From positions 1 through 58,261 of IMG/VR virus record IMGVR_UViG_3300035701_002605: 58,261 bases of DNA; one strand, written 5' to 3'. This stretch comes from a virus. Positions within the stretch are counted from its first letter, which is position 1. Each line of letters starts with the position of its first letter. Below are positions 13,394-58,261 of this stretch, piece after piece. Made by a program: the position numbers and the translations under genes. Below the pieces are notes generated by a model. It made no database searches. It was not told where the DNA came from and saw nothing but the letters and a program-made list of their open reading frames with translations.

Positions 13394-14272
13394 TTATAGG
13401 AGAACGTGCTCGTCGTACAGGCGGTGGGGGCCTAGCCGGGCGTCAAGGATAGCGCCGCCCTGCTGAAGTAGGCCCAGGTCGTCGGCCATCGGCTCCATTC
13501 CAGCTAGGCCCACGGCCGCCGGCTCGAAGGCGATCACGGGCCCCTGGTTACGCGCCCGGACGCAGAAGTCCACATCGGCTAGGGGGCGGGTGCCGTAGTC
13601 AGCCGCAAAGCCGCCCATGGAGCGCCAGAGCGTCCGGCGGGTTAGCATGTAGGCGCTGCTCACCGCTTGCAGATCCCGACGCGGGTAGACCTTGGGGTTA
13701 TCAGGCAGCCAGCCGACAAAACGGGCGTACGGTAGCCGACGGACTCCAAAGGCGTAGCCGGCGAACTTGATGCAGGTGGCCAGGGGCATCTCTCGCGGCG
13801 CCATCCCTTCATCCCAGAGCAGCATGCCGCTGGCGATCCCGACCTCCTCGTGCTCCATCACGGCTGCCAGCGTCGGCCATGCCCCAGGCGTTAGCACCAC
13901 GTCGCCGTCCAGAAACAGGAGTAGCGGCGCGAAGCCCTGGGCGGCGGCCCGGTTCCGGCACTCCCACTGGCCCTGCCCGTTGATCACGGTCCGGCCGCCG
14001 ACCTCGCGGGCGATGCGCGCGATCTCTGTATGGCGATCGGTGCCGGCCGGCAACTGGGCAGGCGGAGCATCGGCTACAACGATCGTGGCATCCGGCGGAA
14101 GATGCTGCCGGAGCGCGCCCACACAGGCCGCTAGCCGGTCTAGCTGGTGGCGGACACAGACGACAGCGTCGACGCTACCGCGCAGAGGGACCGCCGCCGG
14201 GGAGACCGCCGGCGTAGGCGGCCGCTGGTGGAGCCGCGCCTGTCTGTTCCGCCTTCGCTTTGACGATCCCAT
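13394..14272 (-). CDS. Family 2 glycosyltransferase-like protein
   Basis: About 292 residues. ATG at 14272 has GAGGAGG six bases upstream; the gene overlaps the preceding GT4 gene by 98 bp. After a basic N-terminus comes a GT-A fold: a nucleotide-binding beta strand (VDAVVCVRHQLDRL), then LLLFLDGDVVLTP carrying the DGD metal/donor motif, and an RPLADVDFCVRARNQG acceptor-side segment. It would transfer a sugar from a nucleotide donor. It is the last gene of the glycan cassette. Confidence 0.75.
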   Translation of the reverse strand: MGSSKRRRNRQARLHQRPPTPAVSPAAVPLRGSVDAVVCVRHQLDRLAACVGALRQHLPPDATIVVADAPPAQLPAGTDRHTEIARIAREVGGRTVINGQGQWECRNRAAAQGFAPLLLFLDGDVVLTPGAWPTLAAVMEHEEVGIASGMLLWDEGMAPREMPLATCIKFAGYAFGVRRLPYARFVGWLPDNPKVYPRRDLQAVSSAYMLTRRTLWRSMGGFAADYGTRPLADVDFCVRARNQGPVIAFEPAAVGLAGMEPMADDLGLLQQGGAILDARLGPHRLYDEHVLL

Positions 14273-15440
14273 CAAGTGCCTCCTCTACAACGTCCAGCGC
14301 CTTATCCCAGGTACGCCCGCGCGCCCACTCCAAAGCGGCGACGGTCCGCCGGCCCCGGTCCTCGTCGTCGCCCCGTAGCTGGGCGATCGCCCACGCCGCC
14401 TCATGGGGGTCGGCGAAGCGGCGTATCTGGTTGCAGAACGGGTCCAGGAATGTGTACTCGGGCGGGACCAGCCAGCCCCGGCCATAGGCTAGGTTCTCGG
14501 CCATGCCGCCGGCGTCGGTACAAACGCAGGGTAGGCCGCAGGCCATCGCTTCCATAACGGGCAGCCCAAGGCCCTCGGCCTTCGAGAGCAACACAAAGCA
14601 GTCGGCCGCCCAGTATAGGTTGCGTAGCTCCTCGTCGCTAAGGCCGGCCCGGCGCTCGTGCTGGTAGAAGGTGGTGTCGTTTTGTAGCTGGAAGGTATTG
14701 CCCAGATCCCAAAGGTGGTAGCCGACCGCCTCGGGCCGGCGCTTAGTGTTGACGATCAGGTAGTAGTCCTCTGCCGATCCGGTAGCGAGCGAGATCATCC
14801 GCCCGCCGCCGGGCGGCCACTCGATCTCCCGGCCCCGGAGCAGGGCAGCCGTAGCGAAGACCGCCGGCAGGTTTTTGCGCTCGTGGTTGTCGCTGACGGT
14901 GAGTAGGACGTAGCGCTCGGCGACCCCCAACTTGTCGCGCCTGATGTCGCGCTCCTCGGGCGTCGGGGGCCGCCAGAACTCCGAGTCGATCCCGATCGGG
15001 ATGTGGCGGGCCGCCAGGCCGGCCTCGACGCAGAGCCGCGTGGCCCACTCGGTCTCTACCAGAGCGGCGCCCATCCCGTCGATCGTCCTAGTCCATTCGC
15101 TGGGGTGCATCAGCGGGCCGCTTTCCAGGGGGAAGATGCCGGCGTAGGCGTAGCCGGCGTCGACTACCGGGCGCCATTCCAGGTGCTTAGTTATGTCGGC
15201 GATCCCCACGATGGCGTCGAACCCCCAGGCAAGGTCTAGCTGGCGGATGTGGGGCATCAGGAAACGCTCGTCGGCGCCGAGCGCCGTGAATGGCAGCCGA
15301 TGCTCGCAGCCGTTGTAGTTAAACGCTAGGACCTTGACATCATGGCCCCGGCCGCCCAGGCCGGCGGCCACCGCCCGGCCGATCGTGGTGTAGCCGGACC
15401 CGCCGTCCAGGTTTAGCTCGCTCAGGATCGCAACTTTCAT
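14175..15440 (-). CDS. Family 4 glycosyltransferase (GT-B)
   Basis: 421 residues. ATG at 15440 (MKVAILSELNL) with AAGGGG six bases upstream; longer frames are unsupported. The N-terminal domain has GGSGYTTIGRAVAAGL, and the C-terminal domain carries the retaining GT4 motif SKAEGLGLPVMEAMACGLP (E-x7-E). A DNHERKNL segment is typical of such enzymes. It probably transfers a hexose or pentose from a nucleotide sugar in the host cytoplasm, acting on a virion protein or a host glycan. It overlaps the next GT2 gene. Confidence 0.85.
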   Translation of the reverse strand: MKVAILSELNLDGGSGYTTIGRAVAAGLGGRGHDVKVLAFNYNGCEHRLPFTALGADERFLMPHIRQLDLAWGFDAIVGIADITKHLEWRPVVDAGYAYAGIFPLESGPLMHPSEWTRTIDGMGAALVETEWATRLCVEAGLAARHIPIGIDSEFWRPPTPEERDIRRDKLGVAERYVLLTVSDNHERKNLPAVFATAALLRGREIEWPPGGGRMISLATGSAEDYYLIVNTKRRPEAVGYHLWDLGNTFQLQNDTTFYQHERRAGLSDEELRNLYWAADCFVLLSKAEGLGLPVMEAMACGLPCVCTDAGGMAENLAYGRGWLVPPEYTFLDPFCNQIRRFADPHEAAWAIAQLRGDDEDRGRRTVAALEWARGRTWDKALDVVEEALDGIVKAKAEQTGAAPPAAAYAGGLPGGGPSAR

Positions 15441-15616
15441 ATTAGGCCCCTTCCCTTCATCGCCAGCAGGTCGCGCATAAAGGTCCGGCGGACCCGGCCT
15501 AGCTCGACCGGGTGATCTGCCTGCCACGGCGCAGGGATACTCTGGCGGCCATCGCGCCAGGCCGCCCATAGCCGGCGGTAGAGCCGGCAGGCCCGACGGT
15601 GGCGGAAGCCCCTCAC
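15437..15616 (-). CDS. Small basic protein, 59 aa
   Basis: A GTG at 15616 overlaps the TGA of the zinc-binding protein gene (GTGA), and the TGA at 15437 overlaps the ATG of the GT4 gene (ATGA), so translation would be coupled at both ends. The product starts MRGFRHRRACRLYRRLWAAW and is strongly basic. Perfect fit into the operon supports it being real. Function unknown. Confidence 0.5.
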   Translation of the reverse strand: MRGFRHRRACRLYRRLWAAWRDGRQSIPAPWQADHPVELGRVRRTFMRDLLAMKGRGLI

Positions 15617-15858: not shown

Positions 15859-16692
15859 CTACTGTAGCCCCCGGCGGTCTAGCTCTAGCCCCAGGTCGGC
15901 CCGGCGCCCGCCCCACTTCTGAAGTAGCAGGTGCTCATGGGCAACGGCGTGTTGCAGCCCCACCATCGGGTCGTTTCCATGGGCCGCGTGCCAGGACTTC
16001 ATGCTCCGGTGCCGACTTACCGGAGGTCCGCAGCGGATACGGTAGCCGGCGGCCTTGATCTGTAGCTGTAGGTCGGTCTCCTCATGCCAGTGGGGGTTAA
16101 AGGCTTCATCGTATAGGAAGCGCGGCACCGTAGGGTAGTCGGCCGGCAGCGAGTCCGGTGCCTGGCCGATGTAGGCCGGCACGCGCTCGTTCCGCCAGGC
16201 CCAACAGTAGCCCATCACCAGGTCGCAGAAGTCGCCCGGCTGCGGGAAGCGCTTATCAAGGAACAGGGTCCGTCCCGGATGCTGGAAGCCGGGCCAGTTT
16301 AGCCAAAAGCCCTGCTGGCCCACGGCGCCGACCGCCTCGTCCTGTAGGAGCGGGGCCAGTAAGGCGCCATCCCAGCCGGGGCCGACGATCACGTCGTCGT
16401 CGACCTGTAGAATAAAGCAGCCGCGCGCCGCCTTCAGGGCGATGTTCCGGGCGCACACTCCTTGGTTTTCTCCTAGAGCGTAGAGCCGGTAGGCGACGCA
16501 GGCGTTAGTATCGGCAGGGTGCAGGTTTCGCAGCCACTCGACGCTACCGTCCCTGCTCCCGTTGTCGACTATGTGAAGCTCAAAGGGCGCCGCTGTCTTA
16601 TCGAGGATGGCTCCCACGCACTCCTCTAGGGCCTGCCGGCGGTCCATGGTCAGGACCACCACGCTAGCCTTAGCTACGATCGGCTCTTGCAC
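15859..16692 (-). CDS. Family 2 glycosyltransferase
   Basis: 277 residues, GTG at 16692. A clear GT2 domain: ASVVVLTMDRRQALEECVGA at the N-terminus, HIVDNGSRDGSVEWL (the D-x-S-x-D-G-S donor-binding loop), and FILQVDDDVIVGPGW with a DDD metal motif. The C-terminal half, with HEETDLQLQIKAAGY, carries the usual ED-type acceptor region. Probable inverting sugar transferase of the glycan cassette. Confidence 0.85.
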   Translation of the reverse strand: MQEPIVAKASVVVLTMDRRQALEECVGAILDKTAAPFELHIVDNGSRDGSVEWLRNLHPADTNACVAYRLYALGENQGVCARNIALKAARGCFILQVDDDVIVGPGWDGALLAPLLQDEAVGAVGQQGFWLNWPGFQHPGRTLFLDKRFPQPGDFCDLVMGYCWAWRNERVPAYIGQAPDSLPADYPTVPRFLYDEAFNPHWHEETDLQLQIKAAGYRIRCGPPVSRHRSMKSWHAAHGNDPMVGLQHAVAHEHLLLQKWGGRRADLGLELDRRGLQ

Positions 16693-16842: not shown

Positions 16843-17376
16843 CTAACCTAGCATCGCGGCCCGCCGCCCGCGCCACCAGGCCTGCTCGTCATGCACCGCC
16901 CGCTGGGCCTCTGTCTTGATGGGCCGCAGGAGCACCCAAAGGTTAGCCCCCGGCCGGAAGCCCTGCTCGACGATCTGGAAGTAGTAGGGCGCGATCCCGT
17001 AGTCGCTGAAGCGCTCCACGTAGCCCGGCTCGAAGTAGCGGAACGTGTCTTCGGTAAAGGCCCTGACATGCGTGGGGTCGCCCCAGGCGGTCGGCGCTGT
17101 ATGGTACGGCACGGTGATCTCGACCCATGCCTGGGGGTCGGCGGAGCAGACGCGCCAGAGGTCGGCCATAAACGCCACCATGTCGCGGATGTGCTCTAAG
17201 GTCTGGTAGCAGCCGACGCGCTCGGCGCAGCCGTCGGCGATCGGCCAGGGGTGACATTCTAGGTCATGCACCAGGTCTACGCCGGGAAGGTTAGCCCGGT
17301 CTACGCCGAAGTAGTCCTCGGGCTTATTCAAGCCGCAGCCTAGCTCCAACCACTTCGGCGCTGGGCGGTGACTCAT
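16843..17376 (-). CDS. SAM-dependent methyltransferase-like protein
   Basis: 177 residues; the ATG at 17376 overlaps the TGA of the upstream methyltransferase (ATGA). The N-terminus KWLELGCGLNKPEDYFGVD is the SAM-binding motif I and the acidic strand-2 end. A QTLEHI segment followed by WRVCSADPQAWVEITVPY matches motifs II and III of small-molecule methyltransferases. Its place among glycosyltransferases suggests O-methylation of a sugar. Substrate is not visible from the sequence. Confidence 0.75.
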   Translation of the reverse strand: MSHRPAPKWLELGCGLNKPEDYFGVDRANLPGVDLVHDLECHPWPIADGCAERVGCYQTLEHIRDMVAFMADLWRVCSADPQAWVEITVPYHTAPTAWGDPTHVRAFTEDTFRYFEPGYVERFSDYGIAPYYFQIVEQGFRPGANLWVLLRPIKTEAQRAVHDEQAWWRGRRAAMLG

Positions 17377-17939
17377 CGCGTGGCCACCGCCAGGTATTCA
17401 TCCGGGCCGCCATGCCCGCGCCCGCGCCGGCAGTCGCGCACGATGCTAAGGCCAGCATCCGCGATCCACTTGGCGACCTCGCGGTCGGCAACGCGCCGGT
17501 GTAGCGCGTCCGGCTCGGCGTCAACGTGTACCCAGACTAGCGCCTTACCGCCAGGCTTCAGGCTAGCCGCTACGGCCATTAGCAGGCCGGCCGGGTCGTC
17601 GGCGTGGTCCAGGACGTTCAGGACCAGGGCCGTGTCGAAGACGGGCGTAAGGTCGCCCGCTGGCACAACGGCCTCGCCGTAGACCAGCCCGGCGTCGCGG
17701 TAGGCGCCAAACAGCGGGTCCACACAGACCACAATGGCCGGCGGCAGGTCGGCGATCCAGGCGGCCGATACCGGGCCGGAGCCGAAGTCGATCACGGCGC
17801 CTAGGCGGTCAAACTCCTCGAAGAAGTAGGATAGATAGCGGTAGCCGTAGAGGCCGAACAGGCGCGGCAAAGCGTTGGGCCGGGCCAGGAAAGCCCGCCA
17901 CCAGTCTAGCTCGCCGGCCTGCATCTGCTCCCAGGTCAT
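17373..17939 (-). CDS. SAM-dependent methyltransferase
   Basis: 188 residues. The ATG at 17939 (MTWEQMQAGELDWWR) is chosen over longer frames because it overlaps the upstream stop. VIDFGSGPVSAAWIADL is motif I, VCVDPL the strand-2 end, and LVLNVLDHADDP then LKPGGKALVWVHV are the late motifs of a class I fold. Second of four methyltransferases in the glycan cassette, probably acting on a sugar or lipid-linked intermediate. Confidence 0.8.
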   Translation of the reverse strand: MTWEQMQAGELDWWRAFLARPNALPRLFGLYGYRYLSYFFEEFDRLGAVIDFGSGPVSAAWIADLPPAIVVCVDPLFGAYRDAGLVYGEAVVPAGDLTPVFDTALVLNVLDHADDPAGLLMAVAASLKPGGKALVWVHVDAEPDALHRRVADREVAKWIADAGLSIVRDCRRGRGHGGPDEYLAVATR

Positions 17940-18169
17940 GTCGGGCTCCCGTCCCAGACGATCCGGGTAGCGCCATCGTGGCCGTTGATCTGTTCGATCT
18001 CGCCGGCGTTCTGATAGATATTCAGGGACCGGACATCGAACCGGCCCGGCAGCCACTCGATGATGCACCGCCCCGTGGGGAACTCCGCGCCTACCGCTAC
18101 CACGCCAGTACCGCTAACGCCGCTCACGTCCTCGTCGCGGATGAGCCGGAACGTCTTGATCGGGATCAT
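17936..18169 (-). CDS. Conserved-looking small protein, 77 aa
   Basis: The ATG at 18169 overlaps the upstream TGA (ATGA) and has GGAGG eight bases before it. The sequence has a basic start, a Gly/Val-rich middle and an ordered second half (WLPGRFDVRSLNIYQNAGEI then INGHDGATRIVW). The second half resembles small phage proteins that I have seen only as hypotheticals, with a GHDG..R.VW ending. Likely a single small beta domain. Function unknown. Confidence 0.6.
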   Translation of the reverse strand: MIPIKTFRLIRDEDVSGVSGTGVVAVGAEFPTGRCIIEWLPGRFDVRSLNIYQNAGEIEQINGHDGATRIVWDGSPT

Positions 18170-18693
18170 CCTAGCGGCCTCCGGGCAGCGGCCGCGACCA
18201 TGTCCGGCCACTGCCAGTCTAGCTCGTCGGCGGGCCGGTTAGGCGGGCGGTTAGTCCCCGCCGTGTCCACCTGAATGTCCTGGAAGCCGGCCCGGCTCAG
18301 CAGGTAGTGGAAGCCGTAGGGGGTCACGCGGTAGAAGTCCTTGGGCGCGGCGTGAATAGGGAAGCTAAAGCACCACGTCGCCAGGAATAGGCCGCCCGGC
18401 TGTAGCGCCTCGAACATCACCTCGATCGCCCGCCAGGGCTCTAGGACGTGCTCTAGGGTTTCGCAGGCGTAGACCGTCTTGAACCGGCCGGCGACGTAGG
18501 GCGTGGCTAGCAGAATGTCCAGCACCATGTCCACGCCGGCGCCCCGGACCAGGTCGATCCCTAGGTAGTCGGGCTGCGGGAACAGCGGGCGGGCCGTACC
18601 GTTCTCGTTGTGGGCGCCCACCTCTAGGACCGGCGGCTCGGGACGGTACCGCTGGACGGCGTCTTTCATCCACTCCATCACAAGGGGTCTCAT
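18166..18693 (-). CDS. SAM-dependent methyltransferase
   Basis: 175 residues. ATG at 18693 overlaps the upstream TGA (ATGA) with GGAGG eight bases before it; an ATG at 18711 is less likely. PPVLEVGAHNENGTARPL is motif I, DYLGIDL the acidic strand-2 end, and YACETLEHVLEPW then LQPGGLFLATW complete a class I methyltransferase of the methyltransf_11/23 type. Probably modifies a glycan precursor. Confidence 0.8.
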   Translation of the reverse strand: MRPLVMEWMKDAVQRYRPEPPVLEVGAHNENGTARPLFPQPDYLGIDLVRGAGVDMVLDILLATPYVAGRFKTVYACETLEHVLEPWRAIEVMFEALQPGGLFLATWCFSFPIHAAPKDFYRVTPYGFHYLLSRAGFQDIQVDTAGTNRPPNRPADELDWQWPDMVAAAARRPLG

Positions 18694-19496
18694 GGCGCCG
18701 GCCTCCGCCATGCGCCGATCCCGAAGTGGCCATCGGGCTCCGTTGCCCGGCGGTAGCCCATCCCTGCTAGCACATCGTCCAGAGTTTCCAGTAGGAAGGC
18801 GGTCTCTGGCAGGTGCGTGGGGTAGGGGCGGAAGCTATGCCGCGTCAGGTACAGCACGCCATCCGGCGCCAGGGCGGCGTCGAAGCGCCGGAGTAGGTTG
18901 ACAGGGTCCGGGATATGCTCGACTACGTCCAGCGCTGCCAGGGCGCCCCATCCGTGGTGCATTAGCGCGCCGTGGGGCGTAAACACGCGGACGGTGCCGG
19001 GAGCCCAATTCTCGGTGCCGGCCCAGATCCCGGCCTGCTCGAAGCGCCAGCGGGCAAACTCGGCGGTCTCGCCCAGGTCGGCAAAGCCCACCTGGTAGCC
19101 CTGGGCGGCGAGGAATAGGGCTTGCTGGCCGATCCCGCCGCCGTAGTCCAGGATCGTGCGCCCGGCCATGCCCAGGTAGGATAGGCCACCGTGCACGACG
19201 TTGGCCCGATGGTCGCCGGCCCACATCTGGCCCGGCGGGCCGATCCCCCGCAGAAGCTCGAAGATAAGGCCGTAGCAGCCGTCGTAGAACTGGCGGACCT
19301 TGCGCTTGGGTAGCCGGTCGGCAGCGCTCACATCCTGCCACTTGAAGTCGGGGCCGGTGGTCTGCTGCCATTCAAGCTCCAACAGCACGGCGGCGTCTAC
19401 GCCGACCTCGGAGTAGGCGTCAAAGTAGGCTCGGGGCAGGCCGGGCCAGTATGCCAACGCTAGCTGGTAGGCGTACTCGACCGCTTCATCGCTCAC
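18690..19496 (-). CDS. SAM-dependent methyltransferase
   Basis: 268 residues. GTG at 19496 (MSDEAVEYAYQL) overlaps the TGA of the GT4 gene as GTGA and has GGAGG upstream; a GTG one codon earlier is an alternative, and the longer upstream frame is a shadow. TILDYGGGIGQQALFLAAQG is motif I, and LAALDVVEHIPDPVNLLRRF with LAPDGVLYLT completes the domain. The first about 100 residues are helical and may recognise the substrate. Confidence 0.8.
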   Translation of the reverse strand: MSDEAVEYAYQLALAYWPGLPRAYFDAYSEVGVDAAVLLELEWQQTTGPDFKWQDVSAADRLPKRKVRQFYDGCYGLIFELLRGIGPPGQMWAGDHRANVVHGGLSYLGMAGRTILDYGGGIGQQALFLAAQGYQVGFADLGETAEFARWRFEQAGIWAGTENWAPGTVRVFTPHGALMHHGWGALAALDVVEHIPDPVNLLRRFDAALAPDGVLYLTRHSFRPYPTHLPETAFLLETLDDVLAGMGYRRATEPDGHFGIGAWRRPAP

Positions 19497-20482
19497 CACG
19501 TACCTCCGTCCGCCACCTGCGCCAGCAGGGCCTCGGCCTTGCCGGCCATGGCGTTGATGCTTAGGTGGTCCTCTACGTGCCGCCGGCAGGCGGCGGGGTC
19601 TAGCCTTAGCCACGCCCGTTCCTGTAAGCAAGCAACGAAGTTAGGCTCCGTTGCCATGAGCAAGCCGCTTACCCCGTCCAGGATGAATTCGGGGGTGGAG
19701 CCGTGGTCGAAGGCGAAGACGGGCGTGCCGGATGCCATCGCCTCTATCACCACGATCGGCGCCGGGTCCTGGGCCTCAGAGGTCATTAGTAGGCAGGCCG
19801 ACTGCGACAGGAGAAGTAGCCGCTGGTTGCCGGCGACCTCGCCCACATAGTCCGCCCAGCCCTCGGGCTTAATGCGGGGGCGCATGTAGGCGCCGAAGTA
19901 GCTGCTATCCACGGCCTGCCCGGCTACCGTGATCGGGATACCGGCGCGCTCACAGAGGTCGACCGCCAGGTGGGGCCGCTTATAGGGCATGATCCGGCCC
20001 ATCCAGAGGGCGCCCAGGCGCCGGTTCATCGGGGGGCCGACGCGGAAGTCGCCGGGCTCGATCCCGTTGTGCAGGGCGACCGGGTTAGGCCGTCCGTGCC
20101 AGCGGCCGTGAGCCAGGGAGCAGAAGACCACGTTGCGGGCGTGGGGCTCGATCTGGGCGTTACCGTGGATCATGGTAACGGCCGGCAGGGCCGGCCATCG
20201 GCTCTGCGCTAGCTGCCATCGGCTATGATCGAACAGCACGTCGGGCCGGGGCCGGCGCTCCATCCGATCCACGATCGCGGTCTCCGTGGCCGATGGGGTC
20301 CGATATTGCGATACGGTGACTAACTCGACGCCCGGCACGTCCGAGCCGACCAGCGCGAACAGCGTTACATGATGGCCCCGGCGGCTCAGGTTCTCGCCCA
20401 GCTTAGCGACCAGGTACTCTAGGGCCGCCGTAGCCCGCGCGGGCGTAGGCGCGAAGACGCTAGACTGTAGCCAGATGTTCAT
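19493..20482 (-). CDS. Family 4 glycosyltransferase
   Basis: 329 residues. ATG at 20482 overlaps the TGA of the RusA-like gene (TGATG) and has GGAGG seven bases upstream. GT-B fold: an N-terminal domain with GENLSRRGHHVTLFAL, and a C-terminal domain with RLGALWMGRIMPYKRP (the K that contacts the donor phosphate) and SEAQDPAPIVVIEAMASGTP (E-x7-E type). Probable retaining sugar transferase. Confidence 0.85.
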   Translation of the reverse strand: MNIWLQSSVFAPTPARATAALEYLVAKLGENLSRRGHHVTLFALVGSDVPGVELVTVSQYRTPSATETAIVDRMERRPRPDVLFDHSRWQLAQSRWPALPAVTMIHGNAQIEPHARNVVFCSLAHGRWHGRPNPVALHNGIEPGDFRVGPPMNRRLGALWMGRIMPYKRPHLAVDLCERAGIPITVAGQAVDSSYFGAYMRPRIKPEGWADYVGEVAGNQRLLLLSQSACLLMTSEAQDPAPIVVIEAMASGTPVFAFDHGSTPEFILDGVSGLLMATEPNFVACLQERAWLRLDPAACRRHVEDHLSINAMAGKAEALLAQVADGGTW

Positions 20483-20919
20483 CACCAGACCTCCAAGACG
20501 CAGTCGATCGACTTACCACATGGGCTGAAGGCCCGGCGCTCCGGCGGTAGGACCTCTAGGTTACGGTCGTTTTCGATGATGCCCAGGCGGTAGCGGGCGC
20601 CGCTGGCCTTGGTAGCTACCTGCAACACATCGATCAGGGGCTTTAGGGCGCCCACGCAGTTATCAGGGTCGGCAGCCTGGCGGGTGAAGTGGTGGGTCGT
20701 CGCCAGGCGTCCGTGCTGGAAGCCGCTCGGCCATTTCTGGCCCGGCTTGACGTGGCCGGCCCGTTGGAGCCACACCACGATCGCGGCGCCGGCCATGGTC
20801 GCGTAGTCGCGGCCGTGCTTCTGCTTGGCGGACCAGTGGGCACGGGCGTTAGGGAGAAGCGGCGGCGGCGGGTAGGGAACCGTGAACCGTAGGACCAGGG
20901 GCTTAGACGGCGTGGTCAC
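20482..20919 (-). CDS. rusA: RusA-like Holliday junction resolvase
   Basis: 145 residues, close to the about 120-150 usual for RusA. The pattern fits: a Pro-rich start with PNARAHW, then ADPDNCVGALKPLIDVL, and later GIIENDR, giving the three conserved acidic positions. RusA cuts four-way junctions and would resolve replication intermediates before packaging. GTG at 20919 with CGGGAG upstream. Odd point: it sits inside the glycan cassette and overlaps a GT4 gene by 17 bp, not with the recombination genes. Confidence 0.75.
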   Translation of the reverse strand: MTTPSKPLVLRFTVPYPPPPLLPNARAHWSAKQKHGRDYATMAGAAIVVWLQRAGHVKPGQKWPSGFQHGRLATTHHFTRQAADPDNCVGALKPLIDVLQVATKASGARYRLGIIENDRNLEVLPPERRAFSPCGKSIDCVLEVW

Positions 20920-21928
20920 TAACGATCTCCCGGAGTAGATGATCCCAGGCGACGGCGAAGCCCGTCAGGTTGGCGTGCCGCTCCGCCCAGGCCCGCGACA
21001 TCCCGCGCATGATCCCCCGGCCTCCTTCCCGGCAAAGCTGCCGGATCGCATGGGCAAAGTCCTCCGGCCTAGCCGTTATGGGGAGAGTATAGCCCACCGA
21101 CGTCAGGCCGCTAGGCGCCCAGGGGATGTCCTCGAAAATGCCGGCCTGGGTAGTGACGACGGGTAGGTCAGTCGCCATCGCCTCTAGGCAGGCGTAGGCG
21201 TTCCCCTCGTGGCGGGTAGGATGCAGGAAGATATGGCCCCGGCGGAAGGCGTCGGCCTCCTCGCCGATCCCGGCGTTCAGGTACTCGATCTGGTAGTCGG
21301 GTCCGAGCATGGCGGCTATCGCCGGAATGATCCGGCTACCCTTCTTCGCATTCTTGCCAGCCGCCTCTAGCACGATCCACGGTGGGCCGGGCGGTAGCGG
21401 CTCATCCGGCGGGCGGAAGGCTGCAAGGTCGACGCCGTGATAGATCGTGGCTACGGCGGTCCGGCCGTAGTGCCGGCGTAGCTCGCGGGCCGACGCGGCG
21501 CTGCAAGCCACCGGGTAGGCGTTAGGCGCGTTGAACGCCTCGCCCTGGCGCTGGACCTCGTCGGTGGGGCGCATGCCCATTCGCACGAACATCTCCGCCC
21601 AGGTGCCGTGCACGACAGGGACCACCGGCCGGCTAGTAACGCCGATCCCCCAGTAGCCGTCGCTCACGGCGATGTCGTAGCCGACACCGAAGGCCGGCCC
21701 GTCCAGCCAGGCCCCTAGGACGTAGGCTTTGTCTGGGTTGCCGACTCCCTGGCGATCATAGCGCTCATGGCCGGGCATGTCCGCCCAGCTAATGATGATA
21801 ACTTCCCAGCCGCGCTCCGATAGGGCGGCCTTCAGGTAGGCGGCGAACTTCTCGACGCCCCCTGACTCCCCGTCGGCGCGCTTTAGCCAGGAGATGTGCA
21901 CCGCTCTAGGTGGCCCGGTCCGGCTCAT
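20903..21928 (-). CDS. Family 4 glycosyltransferase
   Basis: 341 residues. ATG at 21928 (MSRTGPPRAVHISWL) overlaps the TGA of the GT9 gene (ATGA). N-terminal domain with GGVEKFAAYLKAALSERGW, as in many GT4 enzymes; the C-terminal domain has IYHGVDLAAF, GKNAKKGSRIIPAIA and HEGNAYACLEAMATDLP (E-x7-E). Retaining sugar transferase. Confidence 0.82.
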   Translation of the reverse strand: MSRTGPPRAVHISWLKRADGESGGVEKFAAYLKAALSERGWEVIIISWADMPGHERYDRQGVGNPDKAYVLGAWLDGPAFGVGYDIAVSDGYWGIGVTSRPVVPVVHGTWAEMFVRMGMRPTDEVQRQGEAFNAPNAYPVACSAASARELRRHYGRTAVATIYHGVDLAAFRPPDEPLPPGPPWIVLEAAGKNAKKGSRIIPAIAAMLGPDYQIEYLNAGIGEEADAFRRGHIFLHPTRHEGNAYACLEAMATDLPVVTTQAGIFEDIPWAPSGLTSVGYTLPITARPEDFAHAIRQLCREGGRGIMRGMSRAWAERHANLTGFAVAWDHLLREIVSDHAV

Positions 21929-22920
21929 GGTAGTTTGCCCTGAAGGATGCCCCACACCGCCTCGCCTGTCAGATCCCGGAGAGTCTTGCCCCTTGGGCAG
22001 TCGTGGGTGTCGCCGGGCGGTACGTGGGGGCGGCCCTCGACGTGGCCGAAGCGCCACATGCAGGGCTCGCACCACTCAGCGTTGCGGACCTCGGTGATAA
22101 GCTCGGGCGGCCCCCACACCTGGACCTTATAGGATGTCGCGCAAGTCATAACGATGGCCGGCTTCCCTAGGGCGAAACGCAGGTGGGCTAGGCCGCCCTC
22201 GGTGCAAAGCATCGACTCGCAGCGGTCCACTACGCCGGCGGTCTGGCGGATGTCAAGCGTCCCGGATAGGTTGATGGCATCGGACCAGGGCCGGCCCTGA
22301 AGGTGGCGGCCGGCTAGCACCACCGGGGTCCAACCGGTCTCTCGTAGCCGGCCGATGATGTAGGTCCAGCCCTCGTCAGTCCACATCTTTCCGGCCCAGC
22401 CCACGCGCGGGCTAAGGGCACAGTAGGGTCCGGGGGCGGCCTCGGCAAGCAGGGCGTCGGCTTCTTGGCGCTCGTAGTCCTGTAGGTAGTAGTCAAGGTC
22501 GAAGCGGGTAGCGGCGCTCCACGGAAGCCCTAGCCGGTCAAAGTAGCGGCCTTGGAGCGGCGCGTCCAGGGGCGGGCCGCCGTATTTGACGTAGTACATC
22601 TCGACGGCCTCGGCTTTGCCGGGACGCCGCTCGTCGATGTCCAGGACCCGGCTGATGTGGGGGTTATACCAGAGCATCTCGTCGGGCGCCCCGCCGCTGC
22701 CGGGGGCGGCGCCCGGCGCGTCGTACTCGACGCGGTGCCGGCCCTTTATGATCGTCTGAAAGAGGATAGTGGCGGCGGGCTCCCGCCGCTTCAAGGCCCG
22801 GATGGCCGGCGTACAACACAGCACGTCGCCCAGGCCCCAGGAGAGGTAGAGCAGATAGACCTTGGGCTTTAGGACTCTGGCTCCCTCTCGAACAGCGGTT
22901 TCTTGCCCCCGGTGCAGCAT
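21925..22920 (-). CDS. Family 9 (heptosyltransferase-like) glycosyltransferase
   Basis: 331 residues. The N-terminus YLLYLSWGLGDVLCCTPAIR is the GT9 signature (GD.L..TPA...L), and the C-terminal domain has LSPRVGWAGKMWTDEGW and ESMLCTEGGLAHLRFALGKP, where the acceptor and ADP-sugar bind in heptosyltransferases such as WaaC/WaaF. GT9 members usually use ADP-heptose. That is notable because the phage also has an HldE-like kinase and adenylyltransferase at 40.5-41.8 kb. ATG at 22920 overlaps the upstream gene by 52 bp; no better start exists in frame. Confidence 0.78.
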   Translation of the reverse strand: MLHRGQETAVREGARVLKPKVYLLYLSWGLGDVLCCTPAIRALKRREPAATILFQTIIKGRHRVEYDAPGAAPGSGGAPDEMLWYNPHISRVLDIDERRPGKAEAVEMYYVKYGGPPLDAPLQGRYFDRLGLPWSAATRFDLDYYLQDYERQEADALLAEAAPGPYCALSPRVGWAGKMWTDEGWTYIIGRLRETGWTPVVLAGRHLQGRPWSDAINLSGTLDIRQTAGVVDRCESMLCTEGGLAHLRFALGKPAIVMTCATSYKVQVWGPPELITEVRNAEWCEPCMWRFGHVEGRPHVPPGDTHDCPRGKTLRDLTGEAVWGILQGKLP

Positions 22921-36313: not shown

Positions 36314-38368
36314 CTAGCCCACGAAGGCCATGCGCCCGCCGCGCTTCAAAGCGTGATAGACAGAGCCGGCCACGGCGTCGGCGACATCCTTGGAGCCGCC
36401 CTTGGGATGGTCGACCTTCTTGCCGTGTACCAGCATGAGGTGCTTGGCTTCGGAGAGTAGGACCGGGTGCGCGTAGTAGGCCAGGCGGTCAGTGTTCAGT
36501 AGCTCCAACAGCGTGTCGTAGCCCTCTGTGTTCCGGTCTAGCGAGAACTCCGCTACCCGGTAGCCCTCGCGTTTGAGGATCTGCCGGCTATCGAGGCTCT
36601 GCCAGCCGTCGTAGGAGACCAGGCCGCCCTTGATGTTGAAGCCCCGATCGCCCCAGTCGCGGATCATCTGGCGCACGGTCTCGAACGAAACCTCGCCCTT
36701 GATCTCCCGCTGCCGGCCAGGGACCAGGCGGTGGATCACGTCGACCACGACCGCGCGGGCGCGCGGGTTGTCGACTAGCTGGCCGTCTTCCAGGTGGGTC
36801 TTATAGTAGGGGCAGCCGCTCACAGGGGCGTGGCTCATGCTGATGCCGGCGGCGTCGCGCTTGGCGCCCAGGTCGATGTGCACGTAGCGCCGGCTATCGC
36901 AGCATGGCTTCCACCAGTCGGCAAGCTGGCCCAGGTCGTCGTAGGGGTGCCGGAGGTCCGGGTCCGCCTGGCGATCCCAGCGGCCGGGATCGGAGAAGAA
37001 GCCCTCCATCGCTAGCGGGGGCTGGGCGCCGAAGTCGCGCCAGAAGGCCATCGGGTTCGCGTCCCGGTGGAACGCCTCGGCTAGCGCGTCCTCGCTCAGG
37101 TTTAGGTTAGCTTCCCAGGTCGGCAACTGGACTCCCAGCATGTCGGGGTGCACCGGCCGGCCGTCCGCGTCTACGGCCGTGGCCTCCTCTAGCAGCCGCA
37201 TGGACTTGTCGCCTTCCCACTCCGGCGACGTTAGGACCAGGACCTTGCCGTTCTCTAGGAAGGTGGCCGTGGTCGCAGACATCTTGTCGTAGACCTCGTC
37301 TGCGTTGTCGCGCCCCTCGGTGTCTTTCATCCGGGCTAGCTCGTCAAGGATCACTAGGTAGGATGTAGAGCCCACCTGGGTTGACGCCTTGGAGTGGCCG
37401 CAGCGAATGAGGATGTTCTTGGGTAGCCGTATCTCTAGGCTGACGATCTCGGCCTGGCCGGCCAGCGCTTGGAACCAGGCGCCGCCCGTCTCTAGCCGAT
37501 CGACGATGTGCTTAAACACGTTATGTTTGGCCTGCTCCTGCGACGTGGCCATCGTCACGATCTGTATCTCCTGGCCGGGTACTAGCCCAAAGTAGGCCTG
37601 GGGGTCGGCCAGGGAGAGCAGTTGGTAGGCGGCATACCAGGCGACGACGCTGCCCACCACGCCCTTACCCGAGCGCATGCCGCAGACCAGGACCAGGACC
37701 CGGTAGGGCGACCGGGGCGACATGAATTCCCTAAGCACCCGCTCCTGCATCGGGTAGGCCTGGGTGACGGTGGGCAGGTTACAGAAGTCCGGCGACACGG
37801 CAAAGGTGAGGGCGTCGACCATGCCGGCGGCGCCGGGGCCGATCGTCGCGCCGGGCGGTAACAGTAGTGGCGGCTGGGCGAACAGAGCCTCGACGGCGTC
37901 GGGCGGCATTCCTAGGGCGAGTAGCTGCTGCTGGAAGTTGATGTTGTATATGGGCTGGTCTACCCGGACGCCCCGCGCACGGGCGATGTCGTCAGCGATC
38001 TTGCTGGCCGCCTGGAAGCACCGGGCCTGCTCGCGGGGGTTAACGCCCTGCTGGCTGGCTAGCATCATCAGGGACATTAGGAGTATCCGCTTCATGTCGA
38101 TGTAGTCCACCACGGCACCGGCGCCGGGCGCATGCGGCCCGTTCATGTCGACCAGGTGCCCGGCCGCCCCGGTCCAAATGACCTTTAGGTCGTTGCGGAT
38201 GATGTCTAGTGGCTTGACCTGGCCCTCTAGTAGCTGGGGCGCCTGCCGGCGGAGAGTGGCCAGGATGTCGTATTCATCGGCGCCCTCTAGGTCTAGGCGC
38301 CGGACGTGGCGCCGGCGCTCTGCGATCGCGTCGGCAGTCTTGCGGAGTAGGGACCGTTTTGCGGGCAT
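36314..38368 (-). CDS. terL: Terminase large subunit with N-terminal extension
   Basis: 684 residues, longer than the usual 450-600. The ATPase has a Walker A (GMRSGKG, about residue 229) and a Walker B (LVILDE, about 341). The nuclease has acidic residues in HIDLGAKRDAAGIS (about 496) and KDVADAVAGSVYHAL (about 663). The first about 190 residues include a basic start, DILATLRRQAPQLL and a PLDIIRNDLKVIW segment with a small-terminase-like helix-turn-helix flavour, and no separate small subunit is seen. It translocates DNA into proheads and cuts it. No ribosome-binding site; a palindrome precedes the ATG. Confidence 0.9.
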   Translation of the reverse strand: MPAKRSLLRKTADAIAERRRHVRRLDLEGADEYDILATLRRQAPQLLEGQVKPLDIIRNDLKVIWTGAAGHLVDMNGPHAPGAGAVVDYIDMKRILLMSLMMLASQQGVNPREQARCFQAASKIADDIARARGVRVDQPIYNINFQQQLLALGMPPDAVEALFAQPPLLLPPGATIGPGAAGMVDALTFAVSPDFCNLPTVTQAYPMQERVLREFMSPRSPYRVLVLVCGMRSGKGVVGSVVAWYAAYQLLSLADPQAYFGLVPGQEIQIVTMATSQEQAKHNVFKHIVDRLETGGAWFQALAGQAEIVSLEIRLPKNILIRCGHSKASTQVGSTSYLVILDELARMKDTEGRDNADEVYDKMSATTATFLENGKVLVLTSPEWEGDKSMRLLEEATAVDADGRPVHPDMLGVQLPTWEANLNLSEDALAEAFHRDANPMAFWRDFGAQPPLAMEGFFSDPGRWDRQADPDLRHPYDDLGQLADWWKPCCDSRRYVHIDLGAKRDAAGISMSHAPVSGCPYYKTHLEDGQLVDNPRARAVVVDVIHRLVPGRQREIKGEVSFETVRQMIRDWGDRGFNIKGGLVSYDGWQSLDSRQILKREGYRVAEFSLDRNTEGYDTLLELLNTDRLAYYAHPVLLSEAKHLMLVHGKKVDHPKGGSKDVADAVAGSVYHALKRGGRMAFVG

Positions 38369-38390: not shown

Positions 38391-39809
38391 CTACGTTTGC
38401 ATCGCGCGCGCGTACGCGCTCGCGGCCTTCCACCGTGACTCGGCGGCCCAGGGCCATTTGATCACTTCCCAGGGCAGGCGGGCCGCGTCCTCGATGGCCG
38501 GCGCCAGGTCCATGCAGCCCCGGCCGTTCACCCACGACTTGACGAATTCCGGCGGGGCCGAGAGCAGGTCGGACGTATGCTCGGCGACGGTCTTCGGGCC
38601 GCGCGGCCAGATCGAGAACATGTGCCGGCCGGCGCTGTGGCGGGCGACCCAGTCCTTAAACAGGGCGGGCCGCCGGCGTAGCTCTCCGCCAGGGACAAAG
38701 CGGGCCAGGGGCGCCGGCGGGGCGGGCGTAAAAGTGGTGTATTTGACCCGGCAGACGCCGCGCACGATGGCGCGCGAGAGGTCGTAGTAGAAGTCGGCGT
38801 ACTCCTGCCAGTCGGCCTCGGTCTCGAAGGGCGCGCAGGTGATAAAGAACAGGTGGCTATCCAGCTTGTTAGCGTGGACCTCCGCCAGTAGCGCCAACAG
38901 GGCATCGTTGCGGATCGGCTTACCGTAGGCTAGGCGCTGGCGGTAGGACAGCCCCTCCACGCCAATGCGGCAACTGGACGGGCGGGTCCGCATGAGGGCG
39001 GCCCGAGCCGCCGGCGACTTCAGCGCCCGGAAGGTGAAGCTTTGGGCGCCAAGCTTTATGTCGATGTCCGGGAACCACGGCAGCGCCGCCGGGTCGTTAC
39101 TGACCAGCCGCACGCGCTCGCCCCGATCCTTTAGCTGGCGGAGTAGCCGGACCGCGTAGGCGCCGTCCTCTCGGTACTGGTAGCGCTGCTCCCACGAGGT
39201 AGCACAGAACAGGCACTTGTTCGGGCAGCCCTTCCCGGCCATGACCTGGACGACCTTATCGTCGGACCGGATGGGCGGCACGGACCAGTCGATCCGCGCG
39301 TCGGGCTCCGCTATAGGGCCGGCGCTGCCAGGCGCCAGGAGCCAGGGCCGGGCATGATCCCGACGGTAGCCGGCAAGCTGCGAGCGCTCTAGGGCGTGGG
39401 GGTAGCCGACGATCCACTCCCGCACCTTCTCTACGCCGGCCCGGCTCTTGACCAGCGACAGTAGCTCGCGGATGAAGGCGTAGCCCTCACCGATGGCGAC
39501 TGCGTTGCATATCTCCATCACGGTAAAGGGGGCCGACGCGATGGCGCCGCCGGCGATAACGTAGGGGCCGGCGCGCTTGCTGGCGTCGGGCTCGATCCCG
39601 TAGCGCCGTAGCTCCCGGCGCACGGCCTGGGTGAAGTTGATCGCGCCGGCGTGGGCAACCAGGATGATGTCAGCGCTGCGGGGGTCCGTTAGCCGAACGC
39701 CGGCCTGCTTGGCCTCGTATTCCAGCCAGTAGCCGACGATGGAAGCCACATAGTCGGCCCGGTAGGCGCCCGACGTGCGCTCGTTGGCGTCAACCAGGGC
39801 TACTCTCAC
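38391..39809 (-). CDS. Radical SAM enzyme
   Basis: 472 residues, GTG at 39809 overlapping the ParB-like stop (GTGA). The motif GCPNKCLFCATS (about residue 195; C-x3-C-x2-C) binds the iron-sulphur cluster. The first about 150 residues look like a Rossmann/B12-binding-type domain (MRVALVDANERTSGAY, DIILVAHAGA, YVIAGGAIASA). It follows a ParB-like gene and precedes terminase. Radical SAM enzymes next to ParB-like proteins occur in phages with modified DNA bases, so a nucleotide or RNA modification is possible. Substrate not known. Confidence 0.82.
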   Translation of the reverse strand: MRVALVDANERTSGAYRADYVASIVGYWLEYEAKQAGVRLTDPRSADIILVAHAGAINFTQAVRRELRRYGIEPDASKRAGPYVIAGGAIASAPFTVMEICNAVAIGEGYAFIRELLSLVKSRAGVEKVREWIVGYPHALERSQLAGYRRDHARPWLLAPGSAGPIAEPDARIDWSVPPIRSDDKVVQVMAGKGCPNKCLFCATSWEQRYQYREDGAYAVRLLRQLKDRGERVRLVSNDPAALPWFPDIDIKLGAQSFTFRALKSPAARAALMRTRPSSCRIGVEGLSYRQRLAYGKPIRNDALLALLAEVHANKLDSHLFFITCAPFETEADWQEYADFYYDLSRAIVRGVCRVKYTTFTPAPPAPLARFVPGGELRRRPALFKDWVARHSAGRHMFSIWPRGPKTVAEHTSDLLSAPPEFVKSWVNGRGCMDLAPAIEDAARLPWEVIKWPWAAESRWKAASAYARAMQT

Positions 39810-40480
39810 ACCGGCGCCTCTACCGGCGGGGCGCCGACCGCGTCAAGTCCGGCCGTCAGGACCGCGACCATGGCGGCGCGGTCGTCTTCGGGGTACTCGT
39901 TACGCGCCCACTCTAGTAGCCGGTGGTAGACATCCGCCGGCAGGGCCACCATGATCTCGCCGATCTCTAGGCGCGTATATTCGCCGGTGCCACGGTTGAA
40001 GGCGTTAAAGTTGTCGTTCTCGCGGGCGGCCGCGTGGACGGGCGCCCCTGCGACGCCGCCGGCGTAAAGCTGAAGCTCGGCCCCGGTAAAGCCCGTCAGG
40101 CTCAGGTCGGCGCCCTCTAGCCGTAGCCTATCCTGGACCAGGGCCAGCTTAGTTTCATCCCAGCGGCCCATGATCCGGTTAAGGGCCTGGTTTAACAGGG
40201 TGGCGTCCTGGACGGAGATGTCGATGTCCAGGACCGGCACCTCTGTTAGCCCTAGCTCGATCGCGGCGGCGATCCGCTGGTGACCGGCGATCACTTCGCC
40301 ATCCTCCCGACGCAGTATGATGGGGTCGACAAAGCCCCACTTTGTCAGGGACCGCTTCAGCGCCGCCATCTCCTCCGGGGGCATCCAGCGGGGGTTTAGC
40401 TCGTTTAGCTTTAGGGTGCGCGGGTCCGCGTACCGGATCTGCAACGGCTCGCTGGCCACTACGGGGCTCTCTTTTGCCAT
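39806..40480 (-). CDS. ParB-like nuclease-domain protein
   Basis: 224 residues. ATG at 40480 (MAKESPVVASEPLQIRY) with AAGGGAG eight bases upstream; the longer frame adds an unsupported tail. ELNPRWMPPEEMAALKRSL, then PIILRREDGEVIAGHQRIAA, is the ParB/Srx signature with the GHQR catalytic loop. There is no ParA partner, so it is unlikely to be a plasmid partition system. ParB-like proteins in phages may be DNases or kinases. Operon: XRE, kinase, adenylyltransferase, ParB, radical SAM. Confidence 0.82.
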   Translation of the reverse strand: MAKESPVVASEPLQIRYADPRTLKLNELNPRWMPPEEMAALKRSLTKWGFVDPIILRREDGEVIAGHQRIAAAIELGLTEVPVLDIDISVQDATLLNQALNRIMGRWDETKLALVQDRLRLEGADLSLTGFTGAELQLYAGGVAGAPVHAAARENDNFNAFNRGTGEYTRLEIGEIMVALPADVYHRLLEWARNEYPEDDRAAMVAVLTAGLDAVGAPPVEAPV

Positions 40481-40944
40481 CGCGCCAACTCCCTTGTGGT
40501 ACTCCAAGCGCCGTGCCGGGGTAGCTCTAGCATGCCAAGGCCCAGCCGACGCGCCGCCTGTAGCTCCTCTATCGGGCCGCCGGCCCGGAACATGTAGAGG
40601 TCTGGGTGAATGGCCGCTAGCACCATCTCTAGCGGCTGGTGGCGGTCTAGTTGCACGACGGCGAAGACACCCCGCACGGCAGCGACCATGAAGGCCCGCT
40701 CGGGCCAGGGCCGTAGGGGGCGGCTGGCGCCCTTCGCCAGGACCACCTGCTCGTCGCCGTCGATCGCCACCACCAGGGCGTTACAGTGTTCGCCGGCCTC
40801 ACGGAGAAACAGAACGTGGCCGGGATGGAGAACGTCGAAACAGCCGTTGACCAGGCCCACTATCCTGCCACCTGGCCTGGTCTGGAAGGCCCGGCAGCGA
40901 TCGGCTACCTCCTCTAGGCTCTCTGGGGACCAGACGGCAACCAC
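40459..40944 (-). CDS. HldE-like adenylyltransferase (ADP-heptose pathway type)
   Basis: 161 residues, GTG at 40944 with AGGAG nine bases upstream. LVNGCFDVLHPGHVLFLREA is the cytidylyl/adenylyltransferase signature (N.CFD..H.GH), closest to the C-terminal domain of HldE/RfaE2, which makes ADP-heptose from heptose-1-phosphate and ATP. It overlaps the kinase by 31 bp. In bacteria both domains may be one protein or two. The phage keeps both as separate genes. With the GT9 enzyme it may feed heptose into a glycan. Confidence 0.82.
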   Translation of the reverse strand: MVAVWSPESLEEVADRCRAFQTRPGGRIVGLVNGCFDVLHPGHVLFLREAGEHCNALVVAIDGDEQVVLAKGASRPLRPWPERAFMVAAVRGVFAVVQLDRHQPLEMVLAAIHPDLYMFRAGGPIEELQAARRLGLGMLELPRHGAWSTTRELARWQKRAP

Positions 40945-41816
40945 TTCGCTATCTCCTGCGGCCCCACGGCCACATTATAGGCCGGCGCCCGCACCCGCAG
41001 CCCGGCCGCTACGTTGGCGACCTCGGCGGCCTCGAACATAGCCTCGGCCGCGTAGCGGCCGGCGCTCTCGTAGGCGCCGCCCACGTATGCTGCCAGAGTG
41101 GCGGTGAACACGTCGCCGGCGCCGCTCACGTTCTGGACCGGCCCCGGTACATCGGCCGCCGGGTGCTGCTCGACCCGGCCGGCGGTCGCCACGGCGTAGC
41201 CGGCGGCTCCCCTCGTTACTACGGCCGCCGGCACATCGGCCGCCCATCGCACCCAGTCGAAGTCTACCCGGACCGGCACGGGCCGGGGTAAGCCGGCGTC
41301 GGCCACGTTGACCTTCAGCACATCGAAGCCGTGCCAGCCCTTGATGCTGGCCCGCGCGTCGACTAGCCGGGGGCAGACCCGCCCAACGAGGAACGGCGCC
41401 AGTACCGCCGGCGGGCCGGCTAGCCCACGGTAGTCGACATAGACGATCGCGGCGAAGGTCTGGCCGGCGATGGCCGCCAGGTTTTGGCGTACCGGCGTTA
41501 GTCGGCGGACCCGCCAGGGGTAGTCTAGGCGGAAGACCTCGGCCTCGGGCGCCCCGGCCAGGACCCGAAGCTTTACGCACGTCGCAAGCTCGACCTCGAC
41601 CGCCCGCACTCCGTAGGCGCGTAGTTGCCGCGCGACGTTACCGGCGCCGCCGGCCCGGTCCTCGATCCCCCCAAACGAAAACACGGGCAGCGGCCGCTCC
41701 CGCGAAACGCGGGAAGCCGCTGCCCGGATGAAACGATCCTGACAGAAGTCGCCGATCACTAGAACCGGCGACTTCGGCGCCCAGGGCGGGCGGTCAGCCC
41801 CCGCCCCCTCGCTCAC
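40914..41816 (-). CDS. HldE-like sugar kinase (PfkB family)
   Basis: 300 residues, GTG at 41816 directly after the XRE stop. VLVIGDFCQDRFIRAAASRV, then SRERPLPVFSF and RAGGAGNVARQLRAYG, parallel HldE's VGD...DRY...SR(I)SPEAPVPV...GGAANVA pattern. The C-terminal NVSGAGDVFTATLAA has the anion-hole GAGD of ribokinase-family enzymes. It probably phosphorylates heptose-7-phosphate at C1. No GmhA or GmhB genes are present, so the substrate and the middle phosphatase step would come from the host. A different sugar cannot be excluded. Confidence 0.8.
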   Translation of the reverse strand: MSEGAGADRPPWAPKSPVLVIGDFCQDRFIRAAASRVSRERPLPVFSFGGIEDRAGGAGNVARQLRAYGVRAVEVELATCVKLRVLAGAPEAEVFRLDYPWRVRRLTPVRQNLAAIAGQTFAAIVYVDYRGLAGPPAVLAPFLVGRVCPRLVDARASIKGWHGFDVLKVNVADAGLPRPVPVRVDFDWVRWAADVPAAVVTRGAAGYAVATAGRVEQHPAADVPGPVQNVSGAGDVFTATLAAYVGGAYESAGRYAAEAMFEAAEVANVAAGLRVRAPAYNVAVGPQEIAKWLPSGPQRA

Positions 41817-42326: not shown

Positions 42327-42523
42327 CACGTAACCTCGACGTATTCCATCACTAGGCGCAGGACCTCGTCGTAGCTGTGAGCCGCGCGGGCGCGCTCGGT
42401 AAACTCGGCGGCTTCTTTACGCTGGCCGGCCCCTTCGAGGGAGCGCCGGACCCGGCCCATGATAAGGAAGACGTTGCCGTCCTCGCCGATCAACTGGCAC
42501 TCCGGCTTCTCGTGGTCTTCCAT
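42326..42523 (-). CDS. Small conserved phage protein, 65 aa
   Basis: ATG at 42523 (MEDHEKPECQLIGEDGNVFL) overlaps the upstream TAA (TAATG). CQLIGEDGNVFLIMGRVRRS then a helical part ending LVMEYVEVT match a small protein type that recurs in many phages (the V.L.GEDGN.F..L..V motif). Function unknown, but I think it is widespread. Confidence 0.65.
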   Translation of the reverse strand: MEDHEKPECQLIGEDGNVFLIMGRVRRSLEGAGQRKEAAEFTERARAAHSYDEVLRLVMEYVEVT

Positions 42524-43110
42524 TATCCCCAACTCCTCTCCCACGGTTCCAGGTAGGCCATGCCCAGGGCGGCGTAGACTTCTACCTCGGTGGCGCCGGC
42601 GATCCGGGTCTGGGCGGAGTTGTCGGTAAATAGACCGTACTGGCTCAGGACCATACCGTGCCGCCGCGCCATCTGCCGCTGCCGGATGTTAAGCTGCGGG
42701 CTACCCGTTGCGAACATGATGGAGGCGCCCCAGGACTCCTCTGGCACTAGCCAGAGGTCCACCTGGACTCCCTCGACTCTAACGCTGGCTAGCTTCTTGC
42801 CGGCCCGGATGGGCTCGCCCATGCTGACCAGCGTTGCCATGGCGGACTCGGCCGCCGTATCGTCGTGGGCCACGGCCACGATGTCGCAGTCGTGTACCAT
42901 CTCGATCCCCCGGCGGATGGAGCCGCAGATCAGGGCATGCGTCAGGTTCTCCTTGATGGCGTCGATAACCCGCAGCCCTACGATCTCGGCCTCCTCCCGT
43001 GGCACCTTGGGGGCCGCCGCCTTCGCGGCGGCCTGCGCCTGCCGGCGCCCAATGGCTTCCTCTGCCTTCATCTCCTCCTCGCTGGGGCAAGCCCCCTGCT
43101 CTACGTTCAT
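42523..43110 (-). CDS. PolX-type nucleotidyltransferase
   Basis: 195 residues, ATG at 43110 with GAAGGAGGG upstream. ALICGSIRRGIEMVHDCDIV gives the GS...D-x-D palm motif, VQVDLWLVPEESWG the third acidic residue, and FATGSPQLNIRQRQMARRHG plus LSQYGLF match the family X polymerase end (TGS..HN...R..A). There is no 8-kDa lyase or finger domain, so it is a minimal palm enzyme. It may repair gaps or add nucleotides. It lies in an accessory operon, not near the recombination genes. Confidence 0.78.
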   Translation of the reverse strand: MNVEQGACPSEEEMKAEEAIGRRQAQAAAKAAAPKVPREEAEIVGLRVIDAIKENLTHALICGSIRRGIEMVHDCDIVAVAHDDTAAESAMATLVSMGEPIRAGKKLASVRVEGVQVDLWLVPEESWGASIMFATGSPQLNIRQRQMARRHGMVLSQYGLFTDNSAQTRIAGATEVEVYAALGMAYLEPWERSWG

Positions 43111-52034: not shown

Positions 52035-52036
52035 TC

Positions 52037-57936: not shown

Positions 57937-58261
57937 CTACACCCCCAACATCACCCTGGGCACGTTGGCCGAGCCTAGGGCGTTTTGCCCGGTTATTAAG
58001 GGGAAGACCGCCGGCAACCCGTCTACCGCAAACACAGGCGTAACCGAAGCGTCCGCCATGGCCGCGTAGTGAGTGCGCGGCGTATTGTCAACGAAGGAAA
58101 AGCCGCCCAGCATTAGGCTATGGGGCGAGCCGTTTACGGCGCGAACAGTAACGTCTAGCGACGTGGCCGTCGCCAGAAAATACCAGCCCTGGTGAAGGTA
58201 CTGGCTGATGGCGATCGACTGGAAGACCGGCACCGCTCCGGGGTCGCCGGCCACGGTGCCG
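57937..58261 (-). CDS. Tail-fibre-like protein A, 3' part (joins 1-473)
   Basis: The C-terminal part of the 201-residue fibre-like protein that begins at 473 on the other end. The codons here from about 58261 duplicate those at 1-192. Unique C-terminal codons are 57937-58069. The tip (VTPVFAVDGLPAVFPLITGQ and a short C-terminus MLGV) is beta-like. It ends two bases before the paralogue start. Confidence 0.75.
   Translation of the reverse strand, partial: GTVAGDPGAVPVFQSIAISQYLHQGWYFLATATSLDVTVRAVNGSPHSLMLGGFSFVDNTPRTHYAAMADASVTPVFAVDGLPAVFPLITGQNALGSANVPRVMLGV
58070..58261. repeat. Terminal direct overlap, right copy
   Basis: Same as 1-192 except T at 58134 in place of C at 65. Marks closure of the circular assembly. 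Confidence 0.93.

Follow-up and report, generated by a model that had tools for sequence, protein, structure and literature searches.

The bacterial heptose kinase/adenylyltransferase system, HldE or HldA plus HldC (RfaE), is one of the closest described counterparts of the gene pair considered here, and has in common with it the kinase-then-adenylyltransferase order, the folds and the catalytic motifs. The cellular HldE proteins differ in being mostly fused (54 of the 86 loci classified, 80 of the 86 being cellular) and in having a full-length kinase and both the NSD and KGG motifs. Split and overlapping HldC-like and HldA-like genes are also annotated in cyanophages (Kyanoviridae), for example in the clusters PSSM2_309-313 of P-SSM2 and SXBG_00216-00221 of S-CAM1, and viral heptose enzymes are reported to make adenosine diphosphate (ADP)-heptose (PMC11573728; PMC11461863), with the phosphatase as the one missing enzyme (PMC11461863). 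Here we describe a split pair of this kind in the IMG/VR virus record IMGVR_UViG_3300035701_002605, the whole 58,261 nucleotides of which were analysed and are referred to as the window. In view of the cyanophage pairs and of these reports, a preliminary description of this DNA overstated its case in calling heptose unusual for a phage; what is new is the presence of such a pair in a new phage lineage, in a compact form that is shared.

The two genes were found where the preliminary description had placed the halves of an HldE-like module (Table 1), and they overlap by 31 bp. The top NCBIfam models were rfaE_dom_I (TIGR02198; E 1.6e-23) for the kinase and rfaE_dom_II (TIGR02199; E 8.2e-22) for the adenylyltransferase, and the pair is also matched by PHROGs families, one of which is named bifunctional heptose kinase/adenylyltransferase. 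Within the PDB, the kinase sequence matched only HldA of Burkholderia cenocepacia, while the best match of the adenylyltransferase was 5x9q/5xf2, an entry titled B. pseudomallei HldC. The structural comparison with HldE that had been proposed as a check gave the same picture. When AlphaFold2 (AF2) models were each aligned with about 1000 PDB chains, the kinase (predicted local distance difference test score, pLDDT, 81.5) ranked HldA 4e84 first, with Z 25.7 and 26-28% identity, and the adenylyltransferase (pLDDT 84.6) ranked B. pseudomallei HldC 5xf2 first, with Z 17.7, the next being 15.3. Ribokinases follow closely behind HldA (Z 23-24, identity mostly 14-21%); hence the kinase fold alone cannot fix the substrate, and the modelled fold would still be compatible with a ribokinase-like one. 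No ribokinase or fructokinase model of NCBIfam was reported for the kinase at E<=0.01. These two identities, and likewise glycerol-3-phosphate cytidylyltransferase and pantetheine-phosphate adenylyltransferase for the second protein, were rejected as primary identities, as they gave no match or a far weaker one in the model search.

Six more phages of 51-61 kb (G002-G007) were found through scans with the kinase, terminase and GT9 glycosyltransferase sequences. One of them, G002 (61 kb), also has a terminal repeat, is collinear with the window from end to end and spans its break point. The contig is essentially a complete phage genome, and because of its terminal repeat and the collinear relative the absence of a gene from the window is treated as meaningful. 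The kinase and GT9 are present in all seven phages and the adenylyltransferase in six, the exception being G006. The best phage matches of the terminase were from Streptomyces phages, at about 27% identity, which is too weak to serve as a pointer to the host, and a terminase-based host search of 400 Chloroflexota and 396 Actinomycetota genomes yielded one weak, non-collinear match only.

Because the pair recurs in the related phages at 38-59% identity with invariant active-site residues, comparison of the sequences confirms that it is real and not due to chance. In the kinases of all seven phages, GAGD, K82/R84, R96/D98 and the R-x-S-x-E-x-P-x-P-V signature are invariant; the HldA-signature and GAGD positions are conserved in >75%, and mostly >90%, of 61 cellular kinases, in comparison with which the phage proteins also keep GD..D, DY and D153. 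In total, all seven phages agree at 24 of the 35 positions that cellular HldA conserves (Fisher p 2e-12). The adenylyltransferases of the six phages have invariant HPGH, K71, R83 and S148, with HxGH, K71 and R83 common to these proteins and the 81 cellular adenylyltransferases compared, and 18 of the 37 cellular-conserved residues are invariant across the phages (p 1e-7 for invariance). This enrichment of invariance at conserved cellular positions argues against decay. The phage adenylyltransferase resembles the STTR5 heptose nucleotidyltransferases, for which the motif (F/L)XXGRSTT is reported (Tang et al., 2024; PMC11573728; PMC11461863), in its membership of a heptose nucleotidyltransferase family and in its S-T-T motif, which reads STT in the window and SST or STR in three relatives. 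However, the Arg of that motif is replaced by Trp in the six soil-phage proteins (Trp147 in the window) and by Tyr in eight cyanophage proteins, and with this arginine absent an STTR5-type promiscuity was rejected.

The soil phages and the cyanophages were compared in gene content, gene order and phylogeny. The cyanophages have much larger, T4-like genomes and, near their tail-fibre genes, a phosphoheptose isomerase, epimerase and carbamoyltransferase of their own. In P-SSM2, S-CAM1 and S-CAM3 the pair adjoins the carbamoyltransferase, annotated phosphoheptose isomerase, epimerase and tail-fibre genes, and similar gene sets occur within the stretch read of S-SSM7 and Sf-FS3. The gene upstream of the carbamoyltransferase matched a GT9 model in four of six cyanophages, exceeding the cut-off only in S-CAM1, the other three matches being weak. 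The soil phages have the kinase first, an order also seen in fused HldE, whereas the adenylyltransferase comes first in the cyanophages where the two are adjacent. In phylogenetic trees the soil-phage and cyanophage kinases formed separate, well-supported clades, and a joint clade of the two was neither supported nor rejected (approximately unbiased test, p 0.37). Due to these separate clades and the differing gene order, it is possible that the features shared by the two groups arose by convergence. A placement of the kinase beside a Chloroflexia kinase (98/88) was discarded; it had been marked as a join of long branches, and it fell out of the starred sets once long rows were removed.

The GT9 gene that the preliminary description placed in a glycan cassette was likewise recovered; its closest NCBIfam models are lipopolysaccharide (LPS) heptosyltransferases III and I, and a tblastn search with it against the annotated phage collection gave no match. 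The cassette extends over 13.4-22.9 kb in the order GT2, GT4, GT2, four methyltransferase-like genes, GT4, GT4 and GT9, and sugar O-methylation is a possible role of the four. It lies within the virion structural operon, with the portal-side head genes (portal at 28.6-30.8 kb) on one side and the head-tail connector, neck and tape-measure genes on the other. Actinophages with predicted virion glycosylation, such as the mycobacteriophage Maravista (PMC11256854), are similar in being tailed phages of about 60 kb with glycosyltransferase genes and a suggested glycosylation of the capsid, but the cassette here is larger, contains GT9 and methyltransferases, and is accompanied by the phage's own sugar-activation pair.

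The absence of an isomerase and a phosphatase, also part of the preliminary description, was borne out. Neither the window nor G002 had any match to the SIS_2 (isomerase), Hydrolase_like or GmhB models at E<=1, and G003-G007 had none to SIS_2 or GmhB at the same threshold; a complete ADP-heptose pathway is thus not encoded, GmhA and GmhB being unmatched in all seven phages. The phage would therefore depend on its host for the substrate and also for the phosphatase that acts between the two phage enzymes. The best explanation, which we hold with even confidence, is that the pair activates heptose or a close analogue from host sugar phosphates and that GT9 uses the product on a virion glycan. 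The pair would be a split and compact version derived from bacterial HldE. In this scheme the kinase is predicted to phosphorylate C1 of a heptose-7-phosphate-like sugar, after which a host GmhB-like phosphatase would take off the 7-phosphate and the phage adenylyltransferase would couple a nucleotide to the remaining sugar-1-phosphate; the product would be ADP-heptose or something close to it. With this as its predicted donor, GT9 would move the sugar into a methylated oligosaccharide made by the GT2/GT4/methyltransferase cassette. As the cassette sits between the head and neck/tail genes, the acceptor is most likely a virion protein. In favour of this explanation are the family and fold rankings, the conserved residues, the recurrence of the pair with a GT9 in the relatives, the neighbourhoods of the cyanophage pairs and the viral enzymes reported to make ADP-heptose.

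A number of observations weigh against this explanation. The kinase, with 83.3 bits, falls far short of the curated equivalog cut-off of TIGR02198 (345), and the adenylyltransferase reaches 77.6 bits against 181.5 for TIGR02199, whereas curated bacterial RfaE family members exceed these cut-offs; because of these scores the two are, as judged from their sequences, divergent homologues of HldA and HldC and not formal members of the two families. The pair evolves faster than other genes (window versus G002, ratio of nonsynonymous to synonymous polymorphism, pN/pS, 0.55-0.61, as compared to 0.19-0.46 for 15 other genes), it lies about 18 kb from GT9 and outside the cassette of the latter, and G006 keeps the kinase without a match to the adenylyltransferase. 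The co-occurrence of kinase and GT9 is also partly ascertained, since three phages (G004-G006) were found only through their own GT9, G002, G003 and G007 having been recruited via other genes. Lastly, docking with BpHldC placed heptose-1-phosphate against Asn59 (NSD) and Lys116 (KGG) (PMC7993394), and both of these predicted contacts are changed in the phages. In each of the six phages that have an adenylyltransferase, Asp replaces the NSD Asn (D62 in the window), and the KGG Lys either has no counterpart or has one in an invariant Arg a position away (F119/R120 in the window), whereas all 81 cellular proteins keep both residues.

In all soil-phage kinases about 30 residues, including a segment with G-x-x-G-x-D, are missing between G69 and K82, the spacer being of 14 residues as compared to 40-46 in 59 of 61 cellular kinases. 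This shortening of the kinase and the changes in the adenylyltransferase, both of which recur in the eight cyanophage or marine-virus sequences compared (same kinase deletion, Asp at NSD, no KGG lysine), would also be expected if the module activates a different sugar, either another sugar phosphate or a modified heptose, with the specificity of the HldC-like enzyme altered and GT9 taking the resulting nucleotide sugar. Not all GT9 members are heptosyltransferases, which also accords with this alternative. However, the HldA-signature residues K82/R84/R96/D98 and R-x-S-x-E-x-P-x-P-V are retained, the cyanophage pairs with the same features adjoin annotated phosphoheptose isomerase genes, and viral heptose enzymes are reported to make ADP-heptose. 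We consider a different sugar to be a serious rival, if a tentative one. The preliminary description is thus partly supported: heptose or a close analogue is the likelier substrate, and its alternative of another sugar keeps a lesser probability on account of the two changed positions in the adenylyltransferase.

In view of the features common to the two phage groups, the substrate of phage heptose enzymes may differ from the textbook one. It is conceivable, although we think it rather doubtful, that unrelated phages, namely tailed soil phages of about 60 kb and T4-like cyanophages of the sea, have in common a phage-type heptose pair whose kinase is compact, whose adenylyltransferase site is changed in the same way and whose product is a distinct nucleotide sugar used in GT9-dependent glycosylation of the virion. 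If the heptose explanation is right, phages beyond the cyanophages bring their own sugar-activation step and transferase, and the presence of heptose on virions could be tested in a small set of phages. The sensing of ADP-heptose by animal immunity, which the preliminary description raised, is of no apparent relevance to this phage; the question of substrate matters as the literature now points to viral heptose enzymes as sources of immune-active nucleoside diphosphate (NDP)-heptoses.

That activated heptose is instead added, in the course of infection, to the host cell surface or to an LPS-like glycan, so that superinfection is blocked or a receptor changed, appears unlikely. Phage-encoded receptor modification is common and GT9 is an LPS heptosyltransferase family, but the structural operon surrounds the cassette, with head genes on one side and neck/tail genes on the other, and among the annotated genes there is neither a flippase nor an O-antigen ligase nor a membrane acceptor protein. 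It is very improbable that the two genes are relics, or were recruited into nucleotide or DNA chemistry tied to the operon of ParB, radical SAM (S-adenosylmethionine) and terminase genes, as, despite their overlap with that operon, their higher pN/pS and the missing adenylyltransferase of G006, their active-site residues are invariant over 38-59% identity and the kinase stays where radical SAM is absent (G003-G006) or ParB does not follow the pair (G007).

Table 1. Positions of the described features in the window
Feature	Position	Strand	Evidence
HldA-like PfkB/ribokinase-fold sugar kinase, 300 aa	41816..40914	-	TIGR02198, AF2 fold, signature residues
HldC-like nucleotidyltransferase, HxGH family, 161 aa	40944..40459	-	TIGR02199, AF2 fold, motifs
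GT9 (heptosyltransferase-family) glycosyltransferase	22920..21925	-	PF01075, 36 bits vs Pfam cut-off 22
GT4-like glycosyltransferase	20903..22075	-	PF13439, E 2e-11
GT4-like glycosyltransferase	19493..20485	-	PF00534, E 1e-11
Four consecutive SAM methyltransferase-like genes	16843..19631 (16843-17376, 17373-18068, 18166-18711, 18690-19631)	-	Methyltransf_23-type, some weak
GT2-like glycosyltransferase	15859..16692	-	PF00535, E 6e-18
GT4-like glycosyltransferase	14175..15569	-	PF00534, E 2e-16
GT2-like glycosyltransferase	13394..14275	-	PF13641/PF00535
ParB-like gene, directly downstream of the pair, overlapping, same operon	39806..40507	-	PF02195
Direct repeat, 192 bp	58070..58261	+	copy of window 1-192, 1 mismatch

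Upstream of the pair lies a helix-turn-helix gene, and downstream of it are overlapping ParB-like, radical SAM and terminase genes. The ParB-like gene is a neighbour and not part of the sugar pathway. ParB follows the module in G002-G006 (in G006, L059, directly after the kinase at 5052-5990), whereas G007 (L074) has no ParB between the pair and the terminase. G003-G006 lack the radical SAM gene and have a longer ParB open reading frame (ORF), which in most of them shows methyltransferase-like sequence on visual inspection. As the kinase is retained where radical SAM or ParB is absent, the pair is not tied to either. The radical SAM gene of the window (38391-39809) has a B12-binding-type match and, being 85% identical to that of G002, is among the most conserved genes; in G003, G005 and G006, methyltransferase-like sequence lies downstream of ParB at the position that it occupies in the window.

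The TerL proteins of G003 (L052, 49602-52601) and G006 (L059, 7228-9924) contain an intein-like insert at the same site, which starts with CFTGDTRI, ends with VFVHN before a Ser and is shorter in G006; those of the window (36314-38368) and G002 are without it. The head gene region of the window includes a 913-aa ChaB-domain protein (25340-28081). A short DNA polymerase beta protein of palm plus thumb (PolX-like, 195 aa), encoded at 42523-43110, is kept in G002 and G003. A lipoprotein-like ORF at 47403-47960 has, by eye, a lysozyme/transglycosylase-like CESGW...FAPDTW motif and no Pfam match. The region 48145-57528 contains an SbcC/SbcD-like pair with a weak RecT match (48145-53843) and a sigma-70-type factor (56857-57528).
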